Positions 18,569 to 40,700 of a DNA stretch of 41,456 nucleotides are shown here, piece by piece. Source of the DNA: a bacterium (GTDB lineage: Bacteria > JAJRZV01); NCBI GenBank assembly GCA_024275095.1, contig JAJRZV010000069.1, positions 1-41,456 on the forward strand. Direction: 5' to 3'. A model generated the notes under the pieces. That model was given only the letters and a program-made list of their open reading frames with translations, was not told the origin of the DNA and made no database searches. Each line of letters begins with the position of its first letter. Position 1 is the first letter of the stretch. Position numbers and translations under genes: made by a program.

Positions 18569-19000
18569 TTAAAATATTTCCATCTCTTCCAGTGCTTTTT
18601 CCACCGACTGGAGCAGAACGGCAACATCCCCCAGGGAGACTTTCCTGCTGAAACTGACGATCAGCACATCTCGCCCTGTTTCTTCATCGCCTACCGATAC
18701 CCAGCGTTGCTGTGTTTTCTGGAAACCTAGACGTTCCAGGGGCCCACCTATGGTTTCCATTTCGTTCTCAACATGTTTTTCGATTTCGTGATCTGTGTAG
18801 ATATCTTATGTGATTACGGCGTCGCGTTTGTCGTAGGCAACTTCTACAACCATGTTGTCCTGGGTCAGGAAGATCCCCGAGGGAATGCTTCTCCCGTCAG
18901 GCTGCATCTCCCAGAGTTCCACACGATCACCCGAGATAACAGGATGATATTTTGTACCAGTCAATACCCTTTGCAGGGCTTTTGCTAATTCTTCAATCAT
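18569..19000 (-). CDS. Unknown small protein gene interrupted by in-frame TAA at 18806-18808
   Basis: Two ORFs (18806-19000 and 18569-18760) share one frame; between them frame reads ...[26 protein letters not shown]... Confidence 0.6.
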
Positions 19001-19064
19001 ACTGTATACTTTACTTCGTAGATACGGTGGTTATCAACGCCCTTTTTACAGGAGGTTACCCAAG

Positions 19065-19280
19065 ATGGCAAGAGTTACTATAGAGGATTGCCTGGAGAAG
19101 CTTAACAACCGTTTTCAGCTGGTGCACCTGGCAGCTCGTCGGGCCAAACAGCTGATAACAGGGGCCCGACCTCTTGTAGAAAACAAGGATAATAATAAAG
19201 AAATTGTACTTTCTCTTAGAGAAATTGCAGCAGGCAAGGTGCTGCCTCGCGAAGAAGAAGACGAAGGGGAAACGTTTTAA
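19065..19280 (+). CDS. rpoZ: RNA polymerase omega subunit
   Basis: [30 protein letters not shown]...LREIAAGKV; upstream of spoT/relA. Confidence 0.93.
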
Positions 19281-19333
19281 CCTCTTATACCCGCAGGTCC
19301 CGTTTCGCTTTCTGTTGAGTGAAATAAACACAG

Positions 19334-19353
19334 TTGACACGTATGGGTACGTG
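19334..19353 (+). promoter_or_regulatory. TTGACA with overlapping inverted repeat CACGTA-TGGG-TACGTG upstream of spoT/relA
   Basis: TTGACA 19334-19339, arms 19338-19343 and 19348-19353. Confidence 0.3.
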
Positions 19354-19391
19354 CCTGTTTTAAAGTTGTTTTTTGTGGCAATATATCTAAC

Positions 19392-21530
19392 ATGAGACTT
19401 GAAGATGTACTCGAAAAGGTAAGAATGTACCGCAAAGAAGCGGATCTTGATGTAATAAAAAGAGCCTATATTTTTGCGGCACTTCACCACGGAGCGGATA
19501 AAAGACGCTCCGGCGAACCATTTATCGTGCATCCCCTGGAGGTCGCAGGAATTCTTGCTGATATGAAGTGTGATGAGGTTACTGTAGCTACCGGGCTGCT
19601 TCATGATGTCGTGGAAGATACCAGCATCACCACCGAGGACATCAGAAAGTATTTTGGCGATGAAATCGCTTTTCTGGTTGATTCTGTGACGAAAGTAGAA
19701 AGTGTGGCTTTTCAATCCCGCGAGGAAAAACAGGCGGAAGCTATACGCAAGGTGCTTTTGGCCATGGCGCGTGATGTAAGGGTGATTCTGGTTAAGCTTT
19801 CCGACAGACTTCACAACATGCGCACCATTATGTACCTGAACGAGGATAAAAGGCGTGCTGTAGCAGAGGAGACCTTGGAGGTTTATGCGCCTCTGGCTCA
19901 CAGGTTAGGTATTTACTGGCTGAAGACCGAGCTGGAGGACCGGGCTTTCGAGGTGCTCAGACCCGAAGAATACGCAGAAATTTCGAAAAAGATCAATTCA
20001 TTGAAGAAAGAAAAAGAAAAGTATATTCAGGAAATGTGTTCCAGAATTCAGTCCATTTTGAAAAGGGAAGGGATTAAATGTGAAGTGCAGGGACGATTTA
20101 AAAGTCCTTATTCCATTTACAGAAAGATGTTGAGGGATAACCTCACCTTTGAAGAGGTGTACGATGTTATCGCATTTCGGGTGCTTGTGGACACCGTAAG
20201 GGATTGCTATTCGGCTCTCGGGGTCATACACCTGAATTTCAAGCCCATTTTTGAGAGATTTCGTGATTATATCAGCCGTCCCAAACCAAACAATTACAGG
20301 TCACTTCATACCACTGTGGTGGGCGAAGACGGACAGAAAATGGAAATTCAGATCAGGACTTACGAGATGCACCGTGAAGCCGAGGAGGGTGTTGCTGCCC
20401 ACTGGACGTATAAGGAAGGAAAGGGACGCCCTGAAGAATTGCAGATTTATGCATGGTTAAGAAGGCTCCTGGAAATGAGGGAAGGATCAACCGACCCCGT
20501 CCGGTTTGTTTCTGATGTGAAGGAGGAACTCTTTTCTGATCAGGTGTTTGTGTTTACACCCAAAGGAGACGTGGTGGAACTTCCCAGAGGAGCCACACCT
20601 GTAGATTTTGCTTATGCTATTCACACTGAGGTTGGACACAGGTGCATTGGGGCTGAAGTTAACGGCCGCATGGTGCCTCTTGATACCCCGCTGGAGGTGG
20701 GTGATCGTGTGAGAATTATCACCGGAAAGGAACCTAATCCCAAAAAGGCATGGCTCGCCTTTGTAAAAACGGGCCGGGCACGTTCAAAAATCAGGGCATG
20801 GATTAACGCAAAGGAAAGGGAAGGCCTGATCAGGGTTGGTCGCTCCTTGCTTGTTAAAGATTTAAAGAAAAGATTGCGCAAATTTAAAAAGAGCGAGATG
20901 GAAAAGAATATAGAAGAGGTGGCTCATGAAATGGGGTTTAAGGACGTGAGCGGCTTTTACGCAGCCATTGGAGCTGGAAAGATCTCTATTCATACAGTGT
21001 TACATAGATTGTTGCCGAAAGAAGGTGCCGAAGAAGCGGGGGCAAAAGAAAAACAGCCTTCCTTGCGCACTCTTATACAGCGATGGAGTGACGGCAGAAG
21101 CGAAATTATTGTCGACGGCATGACCGACGTGTATGCCAGGTTTGCGAGGTGTTGTAATCCTTTGCCAGGAGAACCCATAGTTGGCCATGTGTCCGTAGGT
21201 AGAGGACTGGTCATTCATTCCGCGCGTTGCAGTCGAATAGAAGCTGTACCAGAGGAGAGATTGGTGCCGGTGCGATGGGGCATTAAGGAAGGCACCCCTC
21301 GCAAAACAAAACTTAAAATTTACTGTGAAGACAGACCAGGTGTGCTTGCTTCTATTTCTCATGCTATTTCCAAGGAAAATATTAATATTTCTGATGTGTC
21401 ATCACGTGCAGTAATGACTGGCAGGGTGCTCATTTCTTTAAGCATAGAGGTTGTTAATTTTCAGCAGTTGAGAAAGATTCTTAAAACTGTAGAGATGACC
21501 AAGGGGGTGTTAAATGTGCAGAGGGTTTGA
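19392..21530 (+). CDS. spoT/relA: Bifunctional (p)ppGpp synthetase/hydrolase
   Basis: HD motif HGADKRRSGEPFIVHPLEVAGIL, LLHDVVEDT, synthetase YRSLHTTVVG, TGS VFVFTPKGDVVELPRGATPVDFAYAIHTEVGH, C-terminal ACT. Confidence 0.97.
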   Translation: MRLEDVLEKVRMYRKEADLDVIKRAYIFAALHHGADKRRSGEPFIVHPLEVAGILADMKCDEVTVATGLLHDVVEDTSITTEDIRKYFGDEIAFLVDSVTKVESVAFQSREEKQAEAIRKVLLAMARDVRVILVKLSDRLHNMRTIMYLNEDKRRAVAEETLEVYAPLAHRLGIYWLKTELEDRAFEVLRPEEYAEISKKINSLKKEKEKYIQEMCSRIQSILKREGIKCEVQGRFKSPYSIYRKMLRDNLTFEEVYDVIAFRVLVDTVRDCYSALGVIHLNFKPIFERFRDYISRPKPNNYRSLHTTVVGEDGQKMEIQIRTYEMHREAEEGVAAHWTYKEGKGRPEELQIYAWLRRLLEMREGSTDPVRFVSDVKEELFSDQVFVFTPKGDVVELPRGATPVDFAYAIHTEVGHRCIGAEVNGRMVPLDTPLEVGDRVRIITGKEPNPKKAWLAFVKTGRARSKIRAWINAKEREGLIRVGRSLLVKDLKKRLRKFKKSEMEKNIEEVAHEMGFKDVSGFYAAIGAGKISIHTVLHRLLPKEGAEEAGAKEKQPSLRTLIQRWSDGRSEIIVDGMTDVYARFARCCNPLPGEPIVGHVSVGRGLVIHSARCSRIEAVPEERLVPVRWGIKEGTPRKTKLKIYCEDRPGVLASISHAISKENINISDVSSRAVMTGRVLISLSIEVVNFQQLRKILKTVEMTKGVLNVQRV

Positions 21531-21540
21531 CTTAGGAGGT

Positions 21541-21732
21541 TTAAGCAGATTTGGTTACAAGTCCCTTTTTAATACAGGCGGTGCACACTCTCATGCGCCT
21601 CACCTTTCCATTGACGAGAACTCGGATTTTTTTTACATTTGGTCGGAATTTTCTGGATGAGCGCTTGTTAGAATGACTCACACGGTTACCAAACACCACC
21701 GATTTTCCACACACTTCACATCTGTACGCCAT
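21541..21732 (-). CDS. rpmB: 50S ribosomal protein L28
   Basis: MAYRCEVCGKSVVFGNRVSHSNKRSSRKFRPNVKKIRV...VCTACIKKG, zinc-binding form. Confidence 0.95.
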   Translation of the reverse strand: MAYRCEVCGKSVVFGNRVSHSNKRSSRKFRPNVKKIRVLVNGKVRRMRVCTACIKKGLVTKSA

Positions 21733-21796
21733 TTCCAGCCTCCTGAAACTGGGCAGCATGATAAAAGGCATAACTTTTTTTGTCAAGGAAGAACGA

Positions 21797-22810
21797 ATGA
21801 ACGGAAGTAAAAAAGTCATTGGTGTGCTTGGTGGTGGTTCGTGGGGCACAGCCCTTGCCCAGCTCGCTGCAAATAATGGTTATCGTGTAATAATGTGGTG
21901 TTATGAACCCGATGTTGCAGAGTCTATCAATAAGAACAAAGAGAACTACCGTTATCATCCTGGAATAAAACTCAGTGATAATATTCATGCGACACTGGAG
22001 GTGGCCGAGGCTGTTGAGGGGATGGAAATTATCGTATCGGCCGTGCCTTCTTTTGCAGTACGAGAAATATGGGATCGGGCCAAAGGGTATGTAAGCGAAA
22101 AGGCCGTTGTTGTGAGTGCGACGAAGGGTATAGAAGAAGACACATTGATGCGCATGAGTGAGGTTATACTTCAGGTCACTGGAGAAAATACGCGTGTTGC
22201 TGTGCTTTCAGGTCCCAGTTTCGCCAAGGAGGTTATCAGAGGCCTGCCGGCTGCTGTGACCGTAGCTTCTTCTCATGAAGATGCTTCTCGGCTCGCGTGC
22301 GAGGTATTTCACTCATCACGCTTCCGTACATATATTCATCACGACGTTGCCGGCGTAGAAATTGGAGGTGCAATTAAAAATGTGATGGCAATAGCTGTGG
22401 GGCTTTCAGACGGTCTGGGTTTTGGACTGAATACGCGTGCTGCATTGATTACACGGGGCCTGCATGAAATCATGCGTCTTGGAGTGAAGATTGGTGCTGA
22501 TCCTGTAACCTTTTCAGGACTTTCAGGTATGGGCGATCTGGTCCTCACAGCCACAGGTGACCTGAGTCGAAACAGGCGTGTGGGGTTGGGGCTTGCCAGG
22601 GGTAAAAAACTTGAACAGGTATTGAAAGAATTGGGGGAAGTGGCAGAAGGGGTAAAAACAGCACCTGTTGCACTGGCTCTGGCATCCAAATACAATGTGG
22701 AAATGCCTATAACCCGAGAGGTAAATGCGATCTTGTTTGAGGGAAAGGACCCGGTTTCTTCTGTGAAGGATTTGATGACAAGAGAAATGAAAACAGAAGT
22801 GTACTGGTAA
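21797..22810 (+). CDS. gpsA: Glycerol-3-phosphate dehydrogenase [NAD(P)+]
   Basis: IGVLGGGSWGTALAQLAANNGY, GPSFAKEVIRGLPAAVTVAS, GLSGMGDLVLTATGDLSRNRRVG. Confidence 0.97.
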   Translation: MNGSKKVIGVLGGGSWGTALAQLAANNGYRVIMWCYEPDVAESINKNKENYRYHPGIKLSDNIHATLEVAEAVEGMEIIVSAVPSFAVREIWDRAKGYVSEKAVVVSATKGIEEDTLMRMSEVILQVTGENTRVAVLSGPSFAKEVIRGLPAAVTVASSHEDASRLACEVFHSSRFRTYIHHDVAGVEIGGAIKNVMAIAVGLSDGLGFGLNTRAALITRGLHEIMRLGVKIGADPVTFSGLSGMGDLVLTATGDLSRNRRVGLGLARGKKLEQVLKELGEVAEGVKTAPVALALASKYNVEMPITREVNAILFEGKDPVSSVKDLMTREMKTEVYW

Positions 22811-22816
22811 GAGAGG

Positions 22817-24286
22817 ATGGAAGGTAAAAAAATCTTGCAGGTGGATACCGGGAGTGAAAACTCCTATCAATTAAGGGAGAAGTGGCTTGAGGTCCTTCCT
22901 CTTGAGGATAAGGATGCCAAACTTTTCGAGCTTGAAATGTTGTTGAGGGGAATGGATCGCTTTTTCAACGTGAGAAATCTTCCTATTGCAGATTTGGAAA
23001 ATGTGGTGCTCAGAAATTTTCACAACGAAATGAAGGTTGTGGTCATGGGGATTGACAGGTGCATTCTTCTGCTCAAGTCACTTTTGCCACCGGAAGATGC
23101 AAATGTATTCAACTTTCAGATGTATCTCGAAAACTCCCTCTTGATAGATTATGCAAGAGATAAGTTTATTCTGAATAACCTGCGCCAGACTCATCCAAGA
23201 GAAAGCCTCTATCTCATGTTGCTGGCTTTTATTAATTTTTCGGTCATTCTCAAAGCCCTTCTTAATCTCAAACATATCTCCTACATGGCTTTTCATCATA
23301 CAGGTCAGATTGTTTCCCGTGAGATCGCCATCAATCGTTTTTTCAATCCGATGGAGATGCCCGCATTTTCTCCCAGATATGACAAGATCACCATTCCCGA
23401 GTTGAAGAAAGCTGTTGCACGCATTAAGAATTCGAAGGTTCGCTCTACTTATTCTATTATTATACTTGCTCTTCTTCGCTCACTCAGGTACCTGGAACAT
23501 GTGAATCCAGACGTCAATTCAAAAGATCATTTAAGATTTTACACACTTATATTTTCGCTTTTGCGTTCAGAGATCGAGTCGCTGGTGAAGTTTATAGAAG
23601 GTGAGGGTGCCAGGAGGATTAAAGAGGCGGGTATCTCTGAAGATGAACGGACTGAGCACCTGGAGCGTTTTGATTCCGTGGCATTTCAGATCGACATCGA
23701 ATCCAAAAAAGTGTACAGGCAGGTGCTCAGGGACATACTTGAGGTGAGCAGCCTTAATCGCCTGCGGAGTATGGTGGAAAGCGCAAAAGGTATTCTCAGA
23801 AACATTCTCGAACAATCGGTGGTGTTGCTTGCCCACGGGCTGGATGAGAACATTGATGGAAGGGTTATTTTTCCTGATTTTATTCCGAGGTTTGAGCAGT
23901 CGGTAAGGCTGCGCGAGGATATTTTTATTTTTATCAAGATTCTCGAGGCGGTGGAAAGGTCGTTAGACGGGGCAAAGGATGCGGAGATACCACGCAGGCG
24001 GATACTCAGTGTAATAAACGATTATATTTCCTACTTTATGAATCTCAGTTTCAATTATGTCAGGTATTCTGATTCGGAAGAGTTCATAGACTTTTTCAAC
24101 TATGTCAGCAGTTTAAAAAAGTCGGACCTCGAAGAAAAGCGAAAGTTCAACGAATTCAGGTTTAAAGTACACGTGTTTAAAACTTTTCTTGAGACCACCT
24201 TGGGTTTGATTAATAACCGTGCGGAACTTTCCGGTGTTCCTATTGATCAGGAACACGCCATGGAAATATACAGGCAATTTCTCTGA
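22817..24286 (+). CDS. Hypothetical, predominantly helical soluble protein (489 aa)
   Basis: Long ORF with coding-like composition between gpsA and mfd; no family recognised. Confidence 0.8.
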   Translation: MEGKKILQVDTGSENSYQLREKWLEVLPLEDKDAKLFELEMLLRGMDRFFNVRNLPIADLENVVLRNFHNEMKVVVMGIDRCILLLKSLLPPEDANVFNFQMYLENSLLIDYARDKFILNNLRQTHPRESLYLMLLAFINFSVILKALLNLKHISYMAFHHTGQIVSREIAINRFFNPMEMPAFSPRYDKITIPELKKAVARIKNSKVRSTYSIIILALLRSLRYLEHVNPDVNSKDHLRFYTLIFSLLRSEIESLVKFIEGEGARRIKEAGISEDERTEHLERFDSVAFQIDIESKKVYRQVLRDILEVSSLNRLRSMVESAKGILRNILEQSVVLLAHGLDENIDGRVIFPDFIPRFEQSVRLREDIFIFIKILEAVERSLDGAKDAEIPRRRILSVINDYISYFMNLSFNYVRYSDSEEFIDFFNYVSSLKKSDLEEKRKFNEFRFKVHVFKTFLETTLGLINNRAELSGVPIDQEHAMEIYRQFL

Positions 24287-24355
24287 ACTGCGAAGGGTGC
24301 GTCACTGCCTGCAGTCCAATCGGTACTTGCGGATACGTTTTCTGGATGTTCACTT

Positions 24356-27300
24356 ATGATTGATGTCATCGCTGTAAAAGTCGGCGCTATTGTTGAGAGG
24401 TTGCTTCAAAACAAAACTGTCCTTGTCGTTTCTGATGAAAACAACTCAACGTTGTTTTTTGAGTCACTGCAATGCCTGACTGATTGCATATATTGTTTTT
24501 ACGGCGACTCTTTTCTCAGAGACGTGTTGCGCTGGTATGAAACAGAAGAAAAAGAGGGAGCCGTAATTGTTACCACACAGGATGTGCTTCGGAGGGGGCT
24601 TCCAACCCGGGCGGCCCTGAAAAAGGAGTCACTTACAATTCGCCGGAATCAACACGGGGTGCGTCAGCCTCTTGTGGATTTTCTTATTGCTCAGGGATAC
24701 TTTCGTGTCCCGGTGGTTGAATCGCCGGGCGAATTTGCAGTAAGAGGCCTGGTTGTGGATGTGTTTCCCCGGGGCGAGATGCAACCTGTGCGCGTGCAAT
24801 TTTCCGGTGGACGTGTTGATAGGTTGGGATTTTTTGACCCTGTGACTCAAAGAACAGAAAACGAAATTTTTTGCTACTCATTTGTTGCAGAGCACGCACC
24901 TCGGTTTCGTTACGTGCCTTTTCTTTCGGTCATGCCATCTGATTTTGAACTTCTGGTGGATGAATGCATCAGCTTGCTTCATGATGGCGCTGGCTCATTG
25001 GTGCCTGAATCTATAAATTACAGAGTACTTTCTCCTTTATCTGAAGTTTGCAGCAACAGCGCAGCTGGGGAGGCACGCCTGGAAGAGTTCATCAGTTACC
25101 TTAAACGTTCTTCGAGGCGCTTTTTCTCGTCCATGAAATCATTTATCAACGAACGGCTTGAAAAAGGATGGACTGTGGTTTTTGCATGTCCCAATCCTTT
25201 CCATTTAGAAAGATTTTATGAGGAGTTTCTTAATGTTGGATTGAGTCCCGTGATCTGGAAGGCGAATCTTTCTCAACTGGTACAGGGGAGAAAAACAAAA
25301 AAAGCGGGAAAGTTGTATATGGTGGTGGCTCCCGGTGCTCCATGCCTGGACCTTGAAAGTGTCCAGTTTTCCATAATCACTGCTTCGAGAATATTCGGCA
25401 CAAGAGGAGCAGAGAAAAAGAGAACAGCTCCTCAGGCCCATTCACTGAGGGATATTGTCAGAGGTGATTTTGTGGTGCATAGAGATTATGGAATCGGGAG
25501 GTTTGAAGGTATTGTCCAGGAGACTGTAAGAGGGGTGACAAAGGAGTTTTTGAAAATTGTCTACGCGGGAGGAGATCGTCTGTTTTGTCCTGTTGAGAAT
25601 ATGCATCTGGTACACAAATACCTCTCACCTTCAGGGAAAGAGCCGCATCTGGACAAACTGGGGGGACGTGCATGGCAGATCCGTAAACGGAAAGTGCGGA
25701 TGGCCGTGGAGAAGGTTGCACACGAGCTTCTGGAAATATATGCGAAAAAGGAAACGGCACGACCCATCAAGTTTTCTCGACCGGGAGAATTGTACGAAGA
25801 GTTTGAAAAAACATTTCCTTATGAAGAGACGGAGTCACAACATAAAGCAATTGAAGAGGTAATAAACGATCTTACTTCCGAATATATAACCGACCGCTTG
25901 ATTTGTGGAGATGTGGGTTTTGGCAAGACCGAGGTTGCACTCAGGGCGGCTTTTAAAGCTGTGGAAGACGGATTTCAGGTGTTGCTTCTTGCACCGACCA
26001 CACTTCTTGTGCATCAGCACTACAGGATATTTTCCGAGAGATTGAAGTAATTTCCCGTGATTGTAAGGTCATATAGCCGACTTGTACCCAAAAAAGAACG
26101 TGACACTATTTTACAGGAGCTCCTCAGGGGAGAGGTGGACATCCTTATAGCGACCCACGCTGTGATTACAGAAAAGGTCAGGTTCAAAAATCTTGGGTTG
26201 CTGATTATAGATGAAGAACATCGCTTTGGAGTGCGGCACAAAGAGTACTTTCGCAAGATGAGGGAGAATGTGGAGGTGCTTTCGCTCAGTGCAACCCCCA
26301 TACCACGTACACTTTACATGGCACTGGCAGGAATTAAACAAATGAGCATTATTGATACCCCGCCACCCGATAGAAAAGCGGTAAAAACCTACATTGTGGA
26401 GTATTCTGAAAGTCTTGTAAAAGAAGCCATTGAACGTGAAATTGAACGCGGAGGGCAGGTTTTTTTTATTCATAACAGGGCCCGTGAGATTGATTTTTAC
26501 GTAAGAAAAATTCGTTCACTTGTTCCTGAAGTCAGGGTTATAGGAGCACATGGTCAGTTGCGCCCCCGTGAACTTGAAAATCGTATTATCGCGTTTGTGT
26601 CGGGAAGCGCGGACGTCCTGGTTTCCACCAACATCGTGGAGGCCGGACTCGATATGCCGCGTGTGAATACCATTATCATTAATAACGCTCATTCGTTCGG
26701 ACTCGCAGATCTCTACCAACTGCGGGGAAGGGTTGGCAGGTCCCCTGTTCAAGCCTATGCGTACCTGCTTTTGCCTCCAGGGTTTACTGTAAGTGAGGAA
26801 GCGAAGAAAAGACTGCTTGCCATGAAACGATTTGTAGAGCCAGGGTCTGGGTACCGCATGGCTCTCGAAGATCTTGAGATAAGAGGTGCAGGAACCCTGC
26901 TGGGAAAGCACCAGTCAGGCAAGATGGAAGAGGTGGGTATTGATTTTTACCTTGAGGCGTTGAGGCATGCTGTGCTGCAAAAGCGGGGGAGGCCGGAGGA
27001 GCCTGCTGGTCATATGTGTTGCGTCAGGGTCCTTGCTGAGGCCCGGATCCCTCGATGGTACATAGCAGAAGAAGAGGTGAGGCTGAAGGTGTACAGACGC
27101 CTTTCACGCATAGAGTCGGAAGAGGATGTAGACGAGATTTTTCAGGAAGTCCGCGATATATTTGGACCTCCTCCATCAGAGGTGGAGTTTCTCTTTCAGG
27201 TGATGAAGTTTAAATTGCGAATGACATTGCTGGGGGCTGAAAATGTGGAAGAACAGCAACCAGGCCACTTTAAGGTGTCTCTCCGAGAGGGCTGGATTTT

Positions 27301-27364
27301 TGTGAAAAAAGACATTGATATGAAAGGGGTTGTGGTGGATATCAAAATGAGGGGTGTGCCGTGA
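24356..27364 (+). CDS. mfd: Transcription-repair coupling factor, interrupted by in-frame TAA at 26048-26050
   Basis: GDFVVHRDYGIGRFEG (RID), LICGDVGFGKTEVALRAAFKA, then HYRIFSERLK*FPVIVRSYSRLVP, IIDEEHRFGVRHKE, LSATPIPRTLYMAL, NTIIINNAHSFGLADLYQLRGRVGRS; 26057-24356 is divisible by 3. Confidence 0.9.
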
Positions 27365-27465
27365 TAAAATGCCATAGGGTTGAAAACGTCGGCGAGGTTT
27401 TTTCCATGGTTGAGCAGGTAATGAAAGAAATTGCAAGACCTAAGGAGGTACGGGTTGATGAATAA
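27361..27465 (+). CDS. Mini-ORF (34 aa) overlapping mfd stop and next gene start; possible frameshifted mfd C-terminus
   Basis: GTGATAAAATGC...; product VIKCHRVENVGEVFSMVEQVMKEIARPKEVRVDE; -1 frame relative to mfd. Confidence 0.35.
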   Translation: MIKCHRVENVGEVFSMVEQVMKEIARPKEVRVDE

Positions 27466-28354
27466 AAGAGCAACGTTCCTTGTTTTGATGACTTTCCTCT
27501 GGGTTGCAGGCGGGTGCACTCATAAAAGACCACAGGGCCGTGTGATTGCAAGAATTGACGGTGAAGTATTCACCATTGACGATTTGCGTGCGGAACTCTC
27601 TTTGCTCAAACCCAGAGAATTGAAAGCCCTTGGTGCGAACGCGCAGAGAAGGCTTCACTTTATGGAAGGCCTGATTGAACGATGGAAAATGTATGCGGCG
27701 GCCAAAAAGGAAGGGATTGACCAGCTTCCTGAAATGAGAGCTCTGGTGCGAGCATATGAGACACGTCTTCTTCAGAGAAAGTACCTGGAGCAGAAAGTTC
27801 CTTCAGTAAAGGTCGGATTTAAAGATGTAAAAGCCTATTACGACAAGATCAAAGACGAACGTTACCTGAGCAGGGGAATGGTAAGGGTCAGGCGGATCGT
27901 GGTGAAGACGAAGAAAGAGGCGGACGAGGTTCTCAAGGCACTGAAGAGAGGGGAAGATTTTGGCAAACTGGCGGGTGAATATAATACCATCCCTCGCCTC
28001 AAGGCAAAAAAGGGGGATCTGGGTTATCTTGGCCGCGGGGTACTGCCTCCGGAGGTGCAAAAAGTTGTTGATAAAATGAACAAAACACTGGAGGTGGCCG
28101 GCCCTATTAAGACCCGCGAAGGGTATGAGTTTGTACAATATATAGATCGTATAAAAAGGGCCTATGTGCCACTTGAAAAGGTTTACAACGACCTTGTTGA
28201 AGAAGTGAGTGCCAACAGGCGAGCTCAGGCGTACAAAAAGCTGAAAGAGGAGATAGAAAAAAAGTTGAAGGTTGAGGTAAAAGAATCTTTGATTAACGAG
28301 TTTATAAAGAAACAGGCGGGTAAAATTAGAGTAAAAGCACGTACCAACAAATGA
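27458..28354 (+). CDS. Parvulin-type peptidylprolyl isomerase lipoprotein
   Basis: Lipobox WVAGGC; SurA_N-like; RGMVRVRRIVVKTKKEADEVLKALKRGEDFGKLAGEYN...KGDLGYLGRGVLPPEV. Confidence 0.9.
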   Translation: MNKRATFLVLMTFLWVAGGCTHKRPQGRVIARIDGEVFTIDDLRAELSLLKPRELKALGANAQRRLHFMEGLIERWKMYAAAKKEGIDQLPEMRALVRAYETRLLQRKYLEQKVPSVKVGFKDVKAYYDKIKDERYLSRGMVRVRRIVVKTKKEADEVLKALKRGEDFGKLAGEYNTIPRLKAKKGDLGYLGRGVLPPEVQKVVDKMNKTLEVAGPIKTREGYEFVQYIDRIKRAYVPLEKVYNDLVEEVSANRRAQAYKKLKEEIEKKLKVEVKESLINEFIKKQAGKIRVKARTNK

Positions 28355-30242: not shown

Positions 30243-30255
30243 AAGGAGGTTGACA

Positions 30256-31305: not shown

Positions 31306-34148
31306 ATTGGGACAGGCCAATTGTCATTACAGGTGCGCGTGAGCACAATTTGAAAAATATAACAGTTTCCCTCCCAAGAGAGGCTTTTATCGTTATCACA
31401 GGCATATCTGGTTCAGGTAAATCCACCCTGGCATTTGACATTATTTATGCCGAAGGCCAGCGCAAGTACATAGAGTCTCTTTCTGCATACGCAAGGCAGT
31501 TCCTTGAGCGCATGCAGAAGCCTGATGTTGATGAAATCTCGGGCTTGTCTCCGACCATTGCCATAGAACAGCGCAAAGCAGCTTACAATCCCCGCTCTAC
31601 TGTGGGTACTGTGACGGAAATTTATGACTACCTGCGCCTTCTTTTCGCCCGTGCGGGCAAGGCGTATTGCCCTCGATGTGACATTCCTATTGAAAGCATG
31701 AGTGCTGAGGAAATTGTTCAGCGCATTTTTCAATACTATACCGACCAGCTGATCAATATTTATTCCCCGGTTGTTCGTGGCAGAAAAGGAGAATTCAAGC
31801 GCGAATTTCAGGCCTATTTGCGTCAGGGTTTTGTGAAATTCCGCATTGACGGGAAAGTGACGTCAGATCCACTGGCGATGAATATAGACAAGAAAAAGAA
31901 GCACCACGTAGAGGTGCTTGTGGACGAGGTGGAAGTCGTTCCTGAAGAGAGAGGTCGTGTTTTCGAATCCGTTGCTCTTGCGCTTGACCTTTCGGGAGGC
32001 CTGGTGTGTGTAGAAACACAGTCTGGTGCAAAAGAGACGTGGAGCGAAAAATACGCGTGTCCACAGTGTGGCTTCACCTTTTCTGAGATATCTCCCAGGA
32101 CATTTTCGTTCAACAGTCCTTATGGTGCGTGCCCCTCTTGCAGTGGACTCGGCACCCTTAATGATTTTGATCCCTTGCTGGTGGTACCCGACGAGTCGCT
32201 TTCTTTGCGGGAGGGAGCCATCGCACCTTTCCGGGGACGTAACAGCGGTTTTTATACTCAAATGCTTCAATGTGTTGCAGACCATTTTGGTTTTGATACG
32301 GATGTACCTTTCCGTGAACTGCCCGAATATGTGAAAAAGATCATTTTTTACGGTTCGGGAGACGAAGAAATTGACTTTTACATCCGAACCGATCGCACCT
32401 TTTATTTCACACGTCCCTTTGAAGGGGTGATACCTCTGCTCGAAAGAAGATATCGTGAAACAGAGAGCATGAGCGAACGTGAAGAACTCGAGCGCTTTAT
32501 GAGACACAGACCGTGTCCCGATTGTGGCGGTTCGCGCCTCAAAAGAGAATATCTTCATGTAAAATTCAGTGGCAAAAACATTCATGAACTCAGTGATATG
32601 AGCGCGTTCGAACTCAGGCGATTCCTGAGTTCCGTGAAGTTAGAAGGAAAGGAAAAAATCATCGCGGAAAAAATTCTTGCGGAGGTCATTCGGCGGCTTT
32701 CGTTTATGGAAGATGTGGGACTCGGGTATTTAAGTCTCAGCCGCCCGGTACATACACTCTCTGGTGGAGAATATCAGCGCACCAAGCTGGCCACCCAGGT
32801 GGGCTCGGGGCTTGTTGGAGTTATATATGTACTGGATGAACCCAGCATTGGTCTTCACCCTCGTGACACCTGGAGATTGTTGAAAACGCTGAAAGGCCTG
32901 CGTGACCTTGGGAACACGATTATAGTGGTAGATCACGATATGGACACCATTCGTCAGGCAGACTGGATTCTCGATCTGGGTCCTGGTGCGGGGGAGGCGG
33001 GAGGATACGTTGTGGTTGAAGGGCCACCGGATGATGTGGCCGCATGTGATAAGTCTTACACCGGCCAGTACCTCAGTGGACGTTTAAAGATTGAGATGCC
33101 TTCGCGACGGCGTCATCCACGCGGATACATCTGGCTCAAGGGTTGTACTCACCATAACCTTAAAAACATTGATGTAAGAATTCCACTGGGTGTGTTTGTA
33201 TGTGTAACAGGTGTGTCAGGCTCGGGTAAAAGTACACTTGTAATGGATATCCTTTATCCCGCATTGAAGGGACGTCTTACACGCAGTCGTGTTGTGGCAG
33301 GTGCTTTTAAAACGCTGGAAGGCTGGGACCAGGTGGACAGAGTTATAGAAGTGGACCAGAGTCCTATAGGCCGCACACCCCGCTCAAATCCCGTGACATA
33401 TATTGGAGCATTTACACCGATAAGAGAGTTGTTTGCAAAGACTCGAGAGGCTCGTATGAAAGGTTACCGCCCGGGTCATTTCAGTTTCAATGTAAAGGGT
33501 GGACGCTGTGAAGCATGTAAAGGGGATGGATACATCAAAATAGATATGCAGTTTATGCCTGATGTATATGTAAAGTGTGATGTGTGTGGTGGAAAACGTT
33601 TCCACAGTGAAACGCTGGAGGTTCGCTTCAAGGGTAAGAATATTTATGAGGTTCTGGAACTTACGGTAGATGAGGCATTGGAACTTTTTAATAACATACC
33701 AGCAGTAAAACGCAAGCTGGGCCTGCTTCAGGAGGTGGGCCTGGGCTACATAAAGTTAGGGCAGCCTGCACCCACGCTTTCCGGGGGAGAATCACAACGC
33801 ATCAAACTGGCCAGGGAACTATCAAAACGTGACACGGGCCGGACTCTTTACATACTGGATGAACCGACCATTGGCTTACATGCCCATGACGTGAGCAAAC
33901 TTTTGAAAGTTCTGGAACGACTGGTAGATGCTGGTAATACGGTGGTGGTGATAGAGCATAACCTGGATGTGGTAAAGTGTGCTGACTGGATTATAGATTT
34001 GGGACCAGAGGGTGGTGAAAACGGTGGTCGCATTGTTGCAGAAGGTGCCCCGGAGGAAGTTATGCAAAATCCCAATTCTTATACCGCAGAGCACCTGAGA
34101 ATGTATCTTTCTCTTGAAAAACGTGTTGAACAGGGAACACCGGCTTAA
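31302..34148 (+). CDS. uvrA: Excinuclease ABC subunit A
   Basis: GAREHNLKNI, GISGSGKSTLAFDIIYAEGQRKYIESLSAYARQFL, two LSGGE motifs, CEACKGDGYIKIDMQFMPDVYVKCDVCGG. Confidence 0.98.
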   Translation: MNWDRPIVITGAREHNLKNITVSLPREAFIVITGISGSGKSTLAFDIIYAEGQRKYIESLSAYARQFLERMQKPDVDEISGLSPTIAIEQRKAAYNPRSTVGTVTEIYDYLRLLFARAGKAYCPRCDIPIESMSAEEIVQRIFQYYTDQLINIYSPVVRGRKGEFKREFQAYLRQGFVKFRIDGKVTSDPLAMNIDKKKKHHVEVLVDEVEVVPEERGRVFESVALALDLSGGLVCVETQSGAKETWSEKYACPQCGFTFSEISPRTFSFNSPYGACPSCSGLGTLNDFDPLLVVPDESLSLREGAIAPFRGRNSGFYTQMLQCVADHFGFDTDVPFRELPEYVKKIIFYGSGDEEIDFYIRTDRTFYFTRPFEGVIPLLERRYRETESMSEREELERFMRHRPCPDCGGSRLKREYLHVKFSGKNIHELSDMSAFELRRFLSSVKLEGKEKIIAEKILAEVIRRLSFMEDVGLGYLSLSRPVHTLSGGEYQRTKLATQVGSGLVGVIYVLDEPSIGLHPRDTWRLLKTLKGLRDLGNTIIVVDHDMDTIRQADWILDLGPGAGEAGGYVVVEGPPDDVAACDKSYTGQYLSGRLKIEMPSRRRHPRGYIWLKGCTHHNLKNIDVRIPLGVFVCVTGVSGSGKSTLVMDILYPALKGRLTRSRVVAGAFKTLEGWDQVDRVIEVDQSPIGRTPRSNPVTYIGAFTPIRELFAKTREARMKGYRPGHFSFNVKGGRCEACKGDGYIKIDMQFMPDVYVKCDVCGGKRFHSETLEVRFKGKNIYEVLELTVDEALELFNNIPAVKRKLGLLQEVGLGYIKLGQPAPTLSGGESQRIKLARELSKRDTGRTLYILDEPTIGLHAHDVSKLLKVLERLVDAGNTVVVIEHNLDVVKCADWIIDLGPEGGENGGRIVAEGAPEEVMQNPNSYTAEHLRMYLSLEKRVEQGTPA

Positions 34149-34154
34149 GTTTTT

Positions 34155-35546
34155 GTGATTCTGTCGAGGTCAAATGTGAAAGCCCACAGGATATTTGCAA
34201 AAGTGAAAAGCTTTGTTTTAAGAGAAGGTCTTATCCGCGAAGGGGATGCAATTATCGCAGCTGTCTCAGGTGGTCCAGATAGCGTGGCCATGCTGGATAT
34301 GCTTTTGCGTCTTAGAAGACATATCCCCTTTTCAGTGACTGTTGCTCACTATAATCATCGAGTGAGGGGGGCTGAAAGTGATCGTGACGAAACCTTTGTG
34401 AGGGAACTCGCCAGGCGGGAAGGACTTGATTTTGTTTTTGCACGGCGGAAAGCTTCTAAAAAGATGAAGACCTCGGAGTCCGAGTTGCGGAAGGCACGTT
34501 ATCGGTTCCTTCTTCAACTGGCTGACCAGATGGAGGCGAAAATCGCACTCGCCCACCACCGTAATGACCAGGTAGAAACAGTCCTTATGCGCATTTTTAG
34601 GGGTACGGGAGTAAAGGGACTACCTGCAATGCGTCCTGTTTCCGGGCCTCTCATCAGACCGCTTCTGTGTTTGTGGAGATACGAAATAGAGGATTATGTG
34701 CATGAAAGAAGATTGGAATACGTTGATGACGTAACCAACAGAGATGAGCGTATTCCCCGCAATTTCCTCCGGCTCAGGGTTATCCCCATGGTGGAAAAGA
34801 TGTTTCCGGGAGCGTCGGACGCGGTATTGCGACTTGCAGAAAGTGCTTACGAGGACACGCTTTTTCTCGAAGCTCTTGCCAGACGCTTTATTTCCCATGC
34901 TTCGCTTCAAAAAGAAACAGCAGTGTATTCACTCGATGAGTTGCGATCCCTTCCTGTAGCTCTCAGAAAGCGTCTTATTCGTATCACTGTAGAAACAATA
35001 ACAGGTAATGTACCTTCGTGGAAATTTGTGGATCAGGTGGAAAATATTGTGTTCTCCACCGAGGCTGTTGAGTCAAAAGGGAGTGGTGTTTATGTGTACA
35101 GGGAAGGTCATTATTTGGTGATTACGCGGGGAAGAAAAAATCGAAAGGTTGTGTACCGTTACATGGTTGAAAATCCTGGCACTACACTCCAGATCGTGGA
35201 AACAGGCGTTGAAATTACTTTTGAAGAAGAAACAGGACCTGCGGTCGCTTTTGACAGGACCTGTGAAGCAGTCGTTGACATGGACAAAATTGTTTTCCCG
35301 TTGTGTATCAGAACCTGGAAAGCGGGTGATCGGTTTCTACCTTTTGGAGGCCCGGGGCAGGTTAAACTCAAAGAATTTTTTGTGGCGGAGGGAGTACCGT
35401 CACACCTTCGACATTATTATCCTGTTGTTGAAGATGCACGTGGAGAGATTATCTGGATTGCTCCGTTGAGGATTGGCCAGAAGGTTGCTGTTTCTGCAAC
35501 AACAAGGCGGATATTGAAAATGTGTATTAAAATACCTGGAGATTGA
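34155..35546 (+). CDS. tilS: tRNA(Ile)-lysidine synthase
   Basis: AVSGGPDSVAMLDML, VAHYNHRVRG, ALAHHRNDQVETVLMRIFRGTGVKGL; C-terminal domain RTWKAGDRFLPFGG. Confidence 0.95.
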   Translation: MILSRSNVKAHRIFAKVKSFVLREGLIREGDAIIAAVSGGPDSVAMLDMLLRLRRHIPFSVTVAHYNHRVRGAESDRDETFVRELARREGLDFVFARRKASKKMKTSESELRKARYRFLLQLADQMEAKIALAHHRNDQVETVLMRIFRGTGVKGLPAMRPVSGPLIRPLLCLWRYEIEDYVHERRLEYVDDVTNRDERIPRNFLRLRVIPMVEKMFPGASDAVLRLAESAYEDTLFLEALARRFISHASLQKETAVYSLDELRSLPVALRKRLIRITVETITGNVPSWKFVDQVENIVFSTEAVESKGSGVYVYREGHYLVITRGRKNRKVVYRYMVENPGTTLQIVETGVEITFEEETGPAVAFDRTCEAVVDMDKIVFPLCIRTWKAGDRFLPFGGPGQVKLKEFFVAEGVPSHLRHYYPVVEDARGEIIWIAPLRIGQKVAVSATTRRILKMCIKIPGD

Positions 35547-35619
35547 AAAATTATTAATATGCACAAGTGAATATTTTGGTAAAACTTGAAATCGCAGCAG
35601 GTATTAGTTTCAGGATTTT

Positions 35620-35649
35620 TTGACGTTGTACTTTATGAAAGTTTAGGAT
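35620..35649 (+). promoter_or_regulatory. Promoter TTGACG-18-TAGGAT
   Basis: Located in the 143-nt intergenic region before the hydroxyacyl-CoA dehydrogenase gene. Confidence 0.35.
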
Positions 35650-35689
35650 TATGTGGGAGTAAAAAAGTTCTCAGTGATGGAGGGGAATA

Positions 35690-36541
35690 ATGAAGAAAGT
35701 AGCAATACTTGGTGCAGGTACCATGGGCAGTGGCATCGGATATGATGTCGCTCGTTCAGGATATTTGGCCAGCCTTTTCGATGTATCCGGGGCAGTGCTG
35801 GAAAAAGCGCGTTCTTATCACGAAGGTCTGCTGAAACGTGCTGTGGAAAAGGGTCGGATGAGCGAAGGGGATGCCTCTGACACGAGATCACGTCTTTCCT
35901 ATACCACCAGTGAAAAGGAATGTCTTGAAGGCGCGGATATAGTGATAGAAGCTGTACCTGAGAATCTGGAGTTGAAAAAGGAAGTGTTCGGTAAGATAGA
36001 AGAACTTGCGCCGGATCATGCAATTCTGGGAACAAATACCAGTTCCCTTTCCATTACCGGTATTGCTTCAGAGCTGAAGAATCCGGAACGCGTTGTGGGT
36101 ATTCACTTTTTCAATCCCGTGCCTGTAATGAAGCTCGTTGAAATAGTGAAAGGCCTCACCACTTCTCAGGATACGGTAGCAAAGGCTGTAGAGTTCGCAC
36201 GGTCGCTGGGTAAGACCACAGTTGTGGTGAATGATAGCCCTGGTTTTGTTACTACGCGGATTGGGCTTGTGCTCATTGCCGAGGGTATCCGTGTGTATGA
36301 AGCCGGCGTTGCTTCGATGGAAGATATAGACACCGCCATGAAACTCGGCTACAACATGCCCATGGGACCGTTTGAGCTGGCAGATCTCATCGGTCTTGAT
36401 GTGGTTTATAACGTTCTCAAGGCCATATATGCAGAGCTGGGAGATCCGCGTTACGCGCCTCCTTTTACTCTCAAGAAATATGTAACAGCGGGAAAACTGG
36501 GACGTAAAACAGGCGAAGGTTTTTACAGGTACGAAAAGTAA
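35690..36541 (+). CDS. 3-hydroxyacyl-CoA (3-hydroxybutyryl-CoA) dehydrogenase
   Basis: KKVAILGAGTMGSGIGYDVARSGY, GTNTSSLSITGIA, VGIHFFNPVPVMKLVEIV, NDSPGFVTTRI. Confidence 0.96.
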   Translation: MKKVAILGAGTMGSGIGYDVARSGYLASLFDVSGAVLEKARSYHEGLLKRAVEKGRMSEGDASDTRSRLSYTTSEKECLEGADIVIEAVPENLELKKEVFGKIEELAPDHAILGTNTSSLSITGIASELKNPERVVGIHFFNPVPVMKLVEIVKGLTTSQDTVAKAVEFARSLGKTTVVVNDSPGFVTTRIGLVLIAEGIRVYEAGVASMEDIDTAMKLGYNMPMGPFELADLIGLDVVYNVLKAIYAELGDPRYAPPFTLKKYVTAGKLGRKTGEGFYRYEK

Positions 36542-36558
36542 TTCTGGAGGTCCATCAG

Positions 36559-37350
36559 GTGCAGGATGTTCTTTACGAGAAAAAAGGCTACGGCGGTTGG
36601 ATTATTATTAACCGGCCGGAAAGGCGAAATGCTTTCCGCTATCAGACAGTGATGGAGCTGAGAGATGCTTTGCGCATTGCCATAAGTGATAATGAAGTGG
36701 CTGCAGTTGTCATCACGGGTGCAGGGGGTGAGGCTTTTTGTGCCGGTGGTGATATCGAGGAAATGAAGGAATTTGATGCCCGGGCTGCCCGTGATTTTCT
36801 TTTTAATTTTGCACATTTGCTCTTCGAGATACGCACAGCTCCCAAGGTGGTGATTGCAGCAATAAATGGATATTGCCTTGGCGGGGGTAATGAAATTAAC
36901 CTCGCATGTGACCTTTCTGTCGCAACAGAAGGTTCTGTGTTTGGACAGACCGGCCCTGCTGTCGGTGCCTCACCCGTAATGGGCGGTCCTCAACTTTTAC
37001 CTTTTATCGTGGGTGACAAAAAGGCGCGGGAAATTATGTTTCTCTGTTACAAATACTCTGCCCGTGAGGCCGAGAAAATGGGATGGATTAACAGGGTTGT
37101 TCCCGATGGGGCCCTGGAGAACGCGGTGACGGAATGGGTTGAACAAATTGCACGTTTGAGTCCACAGGCACTCAGAATTGCAAAGGAAACACTTAACCTT
37201 TCAAATGACCGTTTTTTTTCTTCACTTTTGCATGCAGCAGAAGTTTTGGCGTTAACATACGAAAGTGATGAATTTCAAGAAGGCATGAGGGCGTTTCTTG
37301 AAAAACGGCACCCGCACTTCAGAAAGAGCCCTGCATGTGATAAAAATTAA
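36559..37350 (+). CDS. Enoyl-CoA hydratase/isomerase
   Basis: IINRPERRNAF, AVVITGAGGEAFCAGGDIEEM, AINGYCLGGGNEINLACDLSVA. Confidence 0.95.
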   Translation: MQDVLYEKKGYGGWIIINRPERRNAFRYQTVMELRDALRIAISDNEVAAVVITGAGGEAFCAGGDIEEMKEFDARAARDFLFNFAHLLFEIRTAPKVVIAAINGYCLGGGNEINLACDLSVATEGSVFGQTGPAVGASPVMGGPQLLPFIVGDKKAREIMFLCYKYSAREAEKMGWINRVVPDGALENAVTEWVEQIARLSPQALRIAKETLNLSNDRFFSSLLHAAEVLALTYESDEFQEGMRAFLEKRHPHFRKSPACDKN

Positions 37351-37365
37351 GAAAGGGAGGCCGGC

Positions 37366-37746
37366 ATGAACCTTGAACAAACCTTAAAAGCTTTGCTGGA
37401 GAAGGTTCAGAGCATTTCCCGCTCTGAAACCGTTGTGGGTGAACCGAGGCAAATAGGAGAGGCCACGCTTGTGCCTATTTCGCGACTACGCGTGGGTTTT
37501 GCAGTGGGTACTCACGACCGAGGCCAATCAGAAGCAAAAGGGAAGGCCGAGGGCGGTGTGACAGGTGGGGGAATCCTTGTGGACCCTGTGGCCATTCTTT
37601 ACATTAACAAAGAAGGTCAGGCTCAACTGTTCTTGCTGGCCAAGGAGGGTACTCCCGTGCTTGCTCGTATTATAGATCTTATTCCTGATGCTGTTGACCG
37701 CATCATTGGCAGGAAAAAAGAGGAAGAGGGGAAGCAAAAGGATTGA
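37366..37746 (+). CDS. GerW/YtfJ-like protein
   Basis: VVGEPRQIGEATLVPISRLRVGFAVGT...GGVTGGGILVDPVAILYINKEG. Confidence 0.85.
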   Translation: MNLEQTLKALLEKVQSISRSETVVGEPRQIGEATLVPISRLRVGFAVGTHDRGQSEAKGKAEGGVTGGGILVDPVAILYINKEGQAQLFLLAKEGTPVLARIIDLIPDAVDRIIGRKKEEEGKQKD

Positions 37747-38582
37747 TTCCGGCTTTTTCAACCCATTTCTTTGTATACGCTCCGCTCAGCGTAAACCATC
37801 TTCGTATGCTTGTTAAACACGGGTTTTCGTATGTTGAACTGTGGTGTGCGGAGGGACATATTCACTTTGCTCCGCAGTCATGGAGGGAACTGAAAAGATG
37901 GTGTGCAGACTGCGGGGTTCAGGTAAAAGCAGGGCATGGTCCTTTTTACGATCGGGTAACGCAGGATCCTTCTCTTCGTCGTGTTTTCCATCTTTCGGAC
38001 GAAGGGTCTTCCGGCCGGGAGGCCATGGACTGGACTCGTCGCGCTCTTGAGTTTTTGAGTGAGTTACAGGCAGAAATAATGGTCATACACACAGGATTCC
38101 ACAAGGGTGACCTGTTCGTGCGCATGGATCGCCTGGCAGAACGTGTAAGAACAATACTCGATGAATGGGATATTAGTCTTGCATTTGAAACTGAACCCCA
38201 TACTTACTGCAGTGCATCCGTAATGACCACGTTCATTGAGACGTATCTGGATGCGCACCCCAGGGCAGGAATATGCCTGGACCTGGGCCATGCGAATGTG
38301 TACGGTGGTGTGATGGAAGAGCTGAAGAGCGCGACGAAACGGCTTCTGTACGTGCACGCATCCGATAATTCAGGAACAGCCGATGCCCATCTGGTTCCTG
38401 GAGAAGGAAATATTTCCTGGAGCAGGGTTCTTGAGGAGCTCGAAAAGAGAAAAACTCCCCTTCAGTATTTTACACTTGAGATAAGAGACCATACGCGTGG
38501 AAAGGCCACATTCAGTGAACTGGAAAATGTAATAGAGCAGTGTGCCAGGTGGAGAGATGAACACAGACGTTATTTCTCGTGA
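37743..38582 (+). CDS. Sugar phosphate isomerase/epimerase (xylose isomerase-like TIM barrel)
   Basis: FSYVELWCAEGH, KAGHGPFYD, IMVIHTGFHKGD, LAFETEPH, GICLDLGHANV, LLYVHASDNSG, HLVPGEGNISW; TTG start overlapping previous stop. Confidence 0.88.
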   Translation: MIPAFSTHFFVYAPLSVNHLRMLVKHGFSYVELWCAEGHIHFAPQSWRELKRWCADCGVQVKAGHGPFYDRVTQDPSLRRVFHLSDEGSSGREAMDWTRRALEFLSELQAEIMVIHTGFHKGDLFVRMDRLAERVRTILDEWDISLAFETEPHTYCSASVMTTFIETYLDAHPRAGICLDLGHANVYGGVMEELKSATKRLLYVHASDNSGTADAHLVPGEGNISWSRVLEELEKRKTPLQYFTLEIRDHTRGKATFSELENVIEQCARWRDEHRRYFS

Positions 38583-39627
38583 GACTATTGAAAAATCCCT
38601 GAAAGAACATACGCATTTCTCTGCGTCCCTTCAGAAAGTGATTCTTCTCAAAGGTGATGCTTCTACACGCAGCTATGCGCGCCTTACGCTCGTAAATGGC
38701 ACGAGCCTTGTGGCCATGATTCTGGGTAATCCTGAGAAGGCAATTGTTCCAGAAGAATTTGTTGAAGCGCAGGCTTCCTTTTCTGAACTTCCTTTTATCA
38801 ATATACACCGGTATCTTCAAAGAGCTGGTGTGCGGGTTCCGGAGATATACGGATACGATCGGAAAAAAGGTATCCTGTATCTCGAAGATTTTGGTGATCA
38901 ACTGCTCGAAGGTGTGGTTCACAGAGTCGGACATTTTCCTGTGGAACTTTATCAGTGTGCTATTGACGAAATGGTAAAAATGCAGGCGTTCAGCCTGGAG
39001 CATAAAGACAGAAGCTGTTACGCATTTCGTCTTGCTTTTACAGAGGGTGTGTTTTTCTGGGAGTTTGATCACTTTGTCGAATACTGCGTGGAAAAAGAAT
39101 TTCGCCTTCCCCTTTCACGCGGAGAAAAAAGCAGCATGCTGGATTTGTTCAGAGCGGCTTCTCAAACCCTCGCAAAACATTCACGTGTGTTCACCCACCG
39201 GGATTTTCACAGTCGAAACCTTATGGTTCTTTCGGACAGATGCATTGGTGTTCTGGACTTCCAGGATGCAGTCACCGGACCCGTTTTTTATGACCTCGCG
39301 TCACTGCTCCGGGATGCTTATGTGGAAGTGCCAGAGGAGATGGAGGACAAACTACTCGCGTATTACAGTGAAAGTGCAGTTTCCTATCTCACTGGAGCTG
39401 AAATGGAAGATTTTCAATATCTATTCGAACTGAGTGCCTTGCAACGTGATCTTAAAGCAGCGGGCAGGTTTTGCTATATTAAGCTGAAAAAACACAACCC
39501 TGCGTTCATGGTGCATGTTCCTCCTGCGCTGAGAAAAGCAGTAAGAGCTGCCCGCTGTCTTGAGAAAATGAGTTCGGAATGGAAAATAATCTTAGAGGTG
39601 GTAGAGAAACTTCTGGCGAGCATGTGA
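38557..39627 (+). CDS. Aminoglycoside phosphotransferase-fold kinase, AmgK-like (COG3178 type)
   Basis: LKGDASTRSYARLTL, ILYLEDFGDQLL, VFTHRDFHSRNLMVLSDRCIGVLDFQDAVTGPVFYDLASLLRDAYVEV. Confidence 0.88.
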   Translation: MNTDVISRETIEKSLKEHTHFSASLQKVILLKGDASTRSYARLTLVNGTSLVAMILGNPEKAIVPEEFVEAQASFSELPFINIHRYLQRAGVRVPEIYGYDRKKGILYLEDFGDQLLEGVVHRVGHFPVELYQCAIDEMVKMQAFSLEHKDRSCYAFRLAFTEGVFFWEFDHFVEYCVEKEFRLPLSRGEKSSMLDLFRAASQTLAKHSRVFTHRDFHSRNLMVLSDRCIGVLDFQDAVTGPVFYDLASLLRDAYVEVPEEMEDKLLAYYSESAVSYLTGAEMEDFQYLFELSALQRDLKAAGRFCYIKLKKHNPAFMVHVPPALRKAVRAARCLEKMSSEWKIILEVVEKLLASM

Positions 39628-40700
39628 TGCCTGCCCAGGAAAAGAATTTAGTATGGGTGATGGAGCGCGTGCCTTCCGAACGTTTCCCCTATCGTCTGAC
39701 AATCCAGACTGAGGCCGGTAGAGTGATACTTGCTCTGCGTGTGCAGGATCGGTGGCCCGGTTCCAGAGGAAACATTTTTTGCATCCGAGACGAGGGCAGG
39801 AGTGGCCTTCCAGAACCCTTGGAAGAGGTCGAACGTGTCCCCGTAGTCTCGTTCAAACGATACGGCCACCGTGTTTCGGTGGTGCTTCAACGTGCTTCGT
39901 GTCGGAAGTGTGATTTTTTGTTTTTAAAAAAGTCGTATAAGACAAAAAGCGGATTTTATGAACAAATATTCTGGCAGACGGAACAGGCTCTGCGTGAGAG
40001 GCGTCCCCGGGTGAAACTCAGCATCAGGGGGTCTCCTGCACTGGAAATATTGATTGATAGAAACGAGCGTTATCCATGGCGTTTCCCGGGTTGCCGTGTT
40101 GAAAGGGAGTCTCTTCCTGCTGGAGATTATGCACTTCTCGGTAACGGAGTGATCCAGGCTGTGGTGGAGCGCAAGACATACTCTGATTTACTGGCTGCCT
40201 TTGGTATTCTTCCATCCTTTCATCAACGGCTTAACGAAATGGAGTCCTACCCACGGGCAGCTCTCGTAATTGAGGCACACTACGCGGATTTTCTGAACCC
40301 CTCACGCAATCGCTTTTACAGCATTTCTTTTACCACCCAGGCCATTGCCGAAATTTACGCACTGCACCCACACCTTCAAGTTGTATTTGCTGGTAATCGG
40401 AAACTTGCCAATTAATGGACATTAAACTATTTTCAAAAGGTTCTTGCGCGCTTGCAGGAGTCAGCACGGATGCCTGCTGTTGCTGAAGAGATGCTGGAGC
40501 ACTCGATTGAAAGGTCGCAACCCCTTCACTGGAAGGAAATTGAAAGAAGTCTCAAGAACAGCACGCTGGAATGTTTTACATTGAGGGATTTGATGGAACA
40601 TTTCGTCGATGCTTCTGAAAAAAGTATCCGGAAGGCTCTGAATTCTCTCAAAAAGCAGGGCATCGTGGAATGTACAGGCCGCGGTCGTGGTGCAAAATAG
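39627..40700 (+). CDS. ERCC4 (XPF-type) nuclease-domain protein with C-terminal helical/winged-helix region; interrupted by in-frame TAA at 40413-40415
   Basis: EILIDRNERYPW...GDYALLGNGVIQAVVERKTYSDLLAAF; frame continues VVFAGNRKLAN*WTLNYFQKVLARLQESARMPAVAEEM... Confidence 0.8.

Follow-up and report, generated by a model that had tools for sequence, protein, structure and literature searches.

In-frame TAA codons that split mfd and two other genes are probably base-substitution errors of a bacterial draft genome

The window, by which we mean the whole 41,456-nucleotide stretch that was analyzed, is contig C32 of a 2.45-Mb bacterial draft genome (hereafter G000; 136 contigs, 97% complete). G000 belongs to an isolated lineage, and no genome of its phylum was among those compared. 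The deposited sequence confirms what a first-pass annotation had reported, namely that three genes in this window are each cut by a single in-frame TAA. The transcription-repair coupling factor gene, mfd, lies at positions 24356 to 27364 on the plus strand as two in-frame open reading frames (ORFs), separated by a TAA at 26048 to 26050 (residue 565). A gene for an ERCC4-type nuclease with a C-terminal winged-helix-like extension, at 39579 to 40700 on the plus strand, is likewise present as two in-frame ORFs, with its TAA at 40413 to 40415 (residue 279). The third is a small minus-strand gene of unknown family at 18569 to 19000, which would have 142 sense residues if read through and carries its TAA at 18806 to 18808 (residue 65). 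The codons around the three stops are AAG-TAA-TTT, ACA-TAA-GAT, and AAT-TAA-TGG, as originally quoted.

The protein on both sides of these stops is coherent, as had been proposed. By Pfam, the read-through frame of mfd encodes an entire Mfd (UvrB_inter, CarD_TRCF_RID, DEAD, Helicase_C, and TRCF), with domains of the protein before and after the stop and the DEAD domain (residues 493 to 653) spanning it. The Pfam ERCC4 domain (5.6e-11) extends to residue 282, past the stop at 279. The read-through product of the small gene matched no Pfam family, and the codon-usage score indicates coding sequence on either side of the stop in both this gene and mfd. We found no credible new start after any of the three stops: a GTG lies 9 bases past the mfd stop without a ribosome-binding site, and the sole start candidate that has such a site lies 57 bases into the ERCC4 fragment.

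Homologs give some indication of which residue each stop replaced. The first reading had suggested glutamate at all three sites, through a change of GAA to TAA. At the ERCC4 stop site this holds well; all four closest homologs (L358 to L361) have Glu there, which argues for GAA>TAA at this position. At the mfd site the homologs vary too much to tell (G, D, P, K, E, H, A, and S, among others), and for the small gene there is no Pfam family with which to judge the suggestion. Homologs of the ERCC4-type gene were found in G016, G049, and G189 at 43 to 50% identity. Nucleases of this type with the winged-helix-like extension are rare, with matches in 6 of 192 genomes, its own included, from scattered lineages. 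A GTDB-wide scan for Mfd returned distant relatives only, the best segment at no more than 52% identity, and no internal stop occurs in the Mfd-type matches from the other genomes that were searched.

Are such interruptions confined to the window, and to TAA? From G000 we took a sample of about 1.0 Mb, trained a codon-usage score, and collected in-frame stops flanked by coding sequence. Seven short contigs of G000 (L062, L063, L077, L093 to L095, and L097) consist of N throughout. Of the 91 raw hits, the majority were rejected as normal gene termini close to a start codon; about 19, some of them judged by eye from coding potential, were kept as interruptions of one gene. The interrupting stops are 12 TAA, 4 TAG, and 3 TGA, so the all-TAA pattern seen in the window does not hold beyond it. 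Besides the three window genes, TAA interrupts rplC, dnaE, prfB, pilB, and the genes for malic enzyme, an M50 peptidase, a methyltransferase, an enolase-superfamily protein, and a DUF4143-type ATPase. TAG interrupts leuA and the genes for biotin carboxylase, a glycoside hydrolase, and a site-2 protease; TGA interrupts sufB, RhuM, and, as one weak case, a Glu-rich gene. The remark that the three window sites share no flanking motif can be extended, as none was found in common among the 19 sites.

Many of these interruptions are supported by alignment. Sequences from the PDB and from other genomes align across the stops in malic enzyme, pilB, biotin carboxylase, dnaE, sufB, prfB, and rplC. For leuA, the alignments with homologs reach as far as the stop, and that with LeuA of the complete reference genome G010 crosses it. 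The RhuM homologs, from viral contigs, include none that covers the stop site. The replaced residues are again mixed. For pilB, the closest homologs mostly have Glu; for dnaE, the usual residue among homologs is Arg, and Lys, Glu, and Gln occur as well; the PrfB and RplC sites are variable. Since rplC, dnaE, and prfB are known to be essential bacterial genes, these stops cannot all be both real and terminating.

Homology gives a rate for the interruptions and a set of controls. We scanned by tblastn, using filtered ORFs and 0.4 Mb of sampled G010 sequence. Over the 46,359 codons of G000 to which proteins of G010 aligned, we counted 6 in-frame stops (rplC, M50, prfB, leuA, pilB, and biotin carboxylase) and 0 frameshifts. 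In the reverse scan, which covered 40,789 codons of G010, no interruption was clear; the five stops that it listed lie at alignment ends or in weak alignments. Likewise, 134,552 codons of Mfd, DnaE, SufB, PrfB, and RplC from other genomes contained no internal stops. The difference in stop rate between G000 and the controls is significant (p=8e-5), and interruptions in G000 amount to about 13 per 100,000 codons. Three splits in about 38 kb of coding sequence had been thought too many for random error, but this objection is answered by the assembly-wide rate: 1.6 interruptions are expected in the window, and the probability of at least three is 0.22. The probability that all three window sites would be TAA is 0.16 to 0.25.

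The ratio of the three stops carries information on the kind of base change that produced them. From codon usage, we computed the TAA:TAG:TGA ratio expected under each substitution model. G>T plus C>A changes predict 54:25:21%, and the observed 12:4:3 fits this expectation (p=0.86). An excess of TAA over TAG and TGA had been raised as a possible genome-wide signal; the count shows TAA in the proportion that codon usage predicts under these two changes. The expectation for transitions, 13:55:32, is rejected (p~0), as is the usage of genuine terminators, 38:10:52, as the source of the interruption ratio (p=0.003), and a natural-like, transition-rich spectrum fits poorly (p=0.026). The stop ratio alone rejects neither A>T/T>A changes (p=0.67) nor uniform error (p=0.13). 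Cytosine deamination and other transition damage can be set aside, since they predict about 13% TAA versus the 63% observed, and long-read indel errors are ruled out by the 0 frameshifts.

Additional evidence comes from the ends of contigs. Four unmerged contig-end pairs of G000 (L052:1-401/L098:9803-10203, L071:13885-14186/L092:13455-13756, L078:1-342/L102:9567-9908, and L096:2690-3044/L100:1-355) overlap by 302 to 401 bp at 99.0 to 99.4% identity. They contain 11 mismatches in 1,400 bp, and the overlaps include none of the three window sites. In the three overlaps with a readable coding frame, there are five transitions, of which four are synonymous, and three transversions. All three transversions are nonsynonymous G/T differences on the coding strand, namely GCT/TCT (A/S) and CAG/CAT (Q/H) in HflX and GGA/GTA (G/V) in a PEGA-like stretch. 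The transitions look like strain variation and the transversions like error, though the cases are few and contig ends are error-prone. Overlapping contig ends that remain unmerged suggest a strain mixture plus error. The final 141 bases of the window (41316 to 41456) are identical to positions 24831 to 24971 of contig C111 on the minus strand; given this exact, fixed-length overlap, a footprint of k-mer assemblers, the assembly is probably a short-read de Bruijn one with k=141. The window contig and C111 may be neighbors, given this shared end.

Taken together, the three TAAs in the window are very probably base-substitution errors of the draft assembly, predominantly G:C>T:A. Single-letter errors are most likely because the same cuts recur with all three stops, in genes that no cell can lose. 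G-to-T sequence error was among the candidates listed at the outset, and it is the best supported of them, with a stop ratio that fits G>T and C>A changes. Such transversions would turn GAA, GAG, and GGA into TAA, TAG, and TGA, and codons of the TCA and TAC type would become stops in the same way. The errors would be distributed throughout the assembly. They would likely arise at places of thin coverage, with the consensus determined by a single read that has an oxidized guanine (8-oxoG) or a miscalled base. The changes to stops would then be absent from the living organism, which, with the standard code, most likely produces all three proteins (Mfd, the ERCC4-type nuclease, and the small protein) at full length. 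One caveat to the error reading is that many of the interrupted sites, that of Mfd included, are variable ones that would tolerate a misread residue, and readthrough would also predict this. Similarly, the absence of frameshifts fits recoding and substitution error equally. Among 307 invariant positions we counted 6 deviations, a number within the range of the other genomes, and error predicts about 1 or fewer; this comparison is of low power.

The alternative that survives best, though it is improbable, is that the stops are genuine nonsense alleles, either in true pseudogenes or as alleles of a minority strain, taken from a mixed population by the assembler. It is in keeping with the overlap differences, most of which are synonymous transitions resembling strain variation, and RhuM and the ERCC4-type gene could be dispensable. 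However, core genes are affected, including rplC, dnaE, and prfB, and decaying genes usually gather frameshifts, of which there are 0 here. The stop ratio also speaks against it, both in its rejection of transition-driven mutation and in its poor fit to a natural-like spectrum.

Another candidate cause of the interruptions is the genetic code itself. TAA accounts for 12 of the 19 interrupting stops, more than either of the others; Glu occupies the ERCC4 and pilB sites in the closest homologs, and the essential genes are otherwise intact, with 0 frameshifts. All of this could be explained by a dual-meaning TAA, which would end most genes and have a Glu-like sense inside some, via a suppressor tRNA or context-dependent readthrough. 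A global reassignment had already been excluded from the genes in the window, and the wider data bear this out: of the terminators of 482 long ORFs, 249 are TGA, 184 TAA, and 49 TAG, which excludes reassignment of TAA as a whole. A dual meaning is itself very unlikely. TAG and TGA also interrupt genes, at the rate that base change predicts, and the 19 sites have no flanking sequence in common. A uniform Glu meaning is unsupported, since most homologs have Arg at the dnaE site.

The decoding machinery points the same way. G000 has 43 tRNA genes, and the anticodons that were read, about 38, are all standard. The TAA suppressor tRNA that had been put forward as a candidate did not emerge from the search: there is no UUA anticodon among the roughly 38 of 43 tRNAs read, and a genome-wide pattern scan, for a TTA anticodon with a T-loop after it, had no match on any tRNA gene. 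Two odd ARAGORN calls of tRNA-Pro in L099 have no Rfam support. Genes of both release-factor types, RF1 and RF2, are encoded, and that for RF1 is free of internal stops. The RF2 gene, prfB (L052:8463-9529), has a classical CUU-UGA programmed +1 frameshift signal, AGGGGGUAUCUUUGAC, with AGGGGG upstream, which indicates that RF2 termination at UGA is in use; its in-frame TAA lies downstream of the frameshift site, at 8711 of L052. In addition, the reassigned stops in bacteria found by a screen of more than 250,000 bacterial and archaeal assemblies are UGA only, read as Trp or Gly (PMC8629427). We thus give very little credence to the idea of a free-living, phylogenetically isolated bacterium that decodes a few internal UAAs, and perhaps other stops, as sense while the same codons terminate elsewhere. 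Least credible of all is a real G:C>T:A mutator lineage (e.g., one that lost MutY/MutM-type repair), which would match the stop ratio and the overlap differences but would have made stops in living cells, where those in rplC, dnaE, and prfB should be lethal.

If base-substitution error is the correct explanation, the split genes are biologically unremarkable, and their value is as a warning about the G000 draft. As projected from the nonsense rate, this draft appears to carry several hundred to about 1,000 substitution errors per Mb. Such an error load suffices to split core genes and mimic recoding, and calls of gene absence or pseudogenes from this draft need to be checked against the reads. 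How, then, can errors be separated from a change in the genetic code? Two inexpensive tests do so, the three-way count of stops and the comparison of contig ends. If stops were truly read as amino acids here, this would to our knowledge be the first dual-meaning UAA in bacteria.

How do these interruptions compare with known systems? They are like ordinary pseudogenes in that a recognizable gene has a single premature stop, and unlike them in affecting core genes, with 0 frameshifts and a transversion-type spectrum. They also resemble bacterial stop-codon reassignments, since in-frame stops in conserved genes are the way such codes are found. In contrast to genomes with those codes, G000 uses TGA as its commonest terminator, has an RF2 gene with a UGA frameshift site, and has no stop cleared from its gene ends. 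A close parallel in the genetic code is Blastocrithidia nonstop, in which UAR and UGA are all recoded and UAA, kept as the stop, has a dual Glu/stop meaning (PMC12153298). G000 shares with it in-frame UAA in essential genes while UAA ends genes, with Glu at two inferred sites. However, TGA and TAG are normal terminators in G000, its in-frame stops number only about 13 per 100,000 codons, and the search found no suppressor tRNA. Ex vivo oxidation has been described as a source of artifactual G>T changes (PMC12390751), and an 8-oxoG artifact or low-depth consensus error is a further likeness. The 8-oxoG artifact is known mostly from deep resequencing, where its usual signature is a strand asymmetry at the level of reads. 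In contrast to those cases, the error here would sit in the consensus of a draft. The likeness seen in the assembly consists of changes by substitution only, a stop ratio compatible with G:C>T:A, and scatter across the genome, and it extends to the disagreements between overlapping contig ends.
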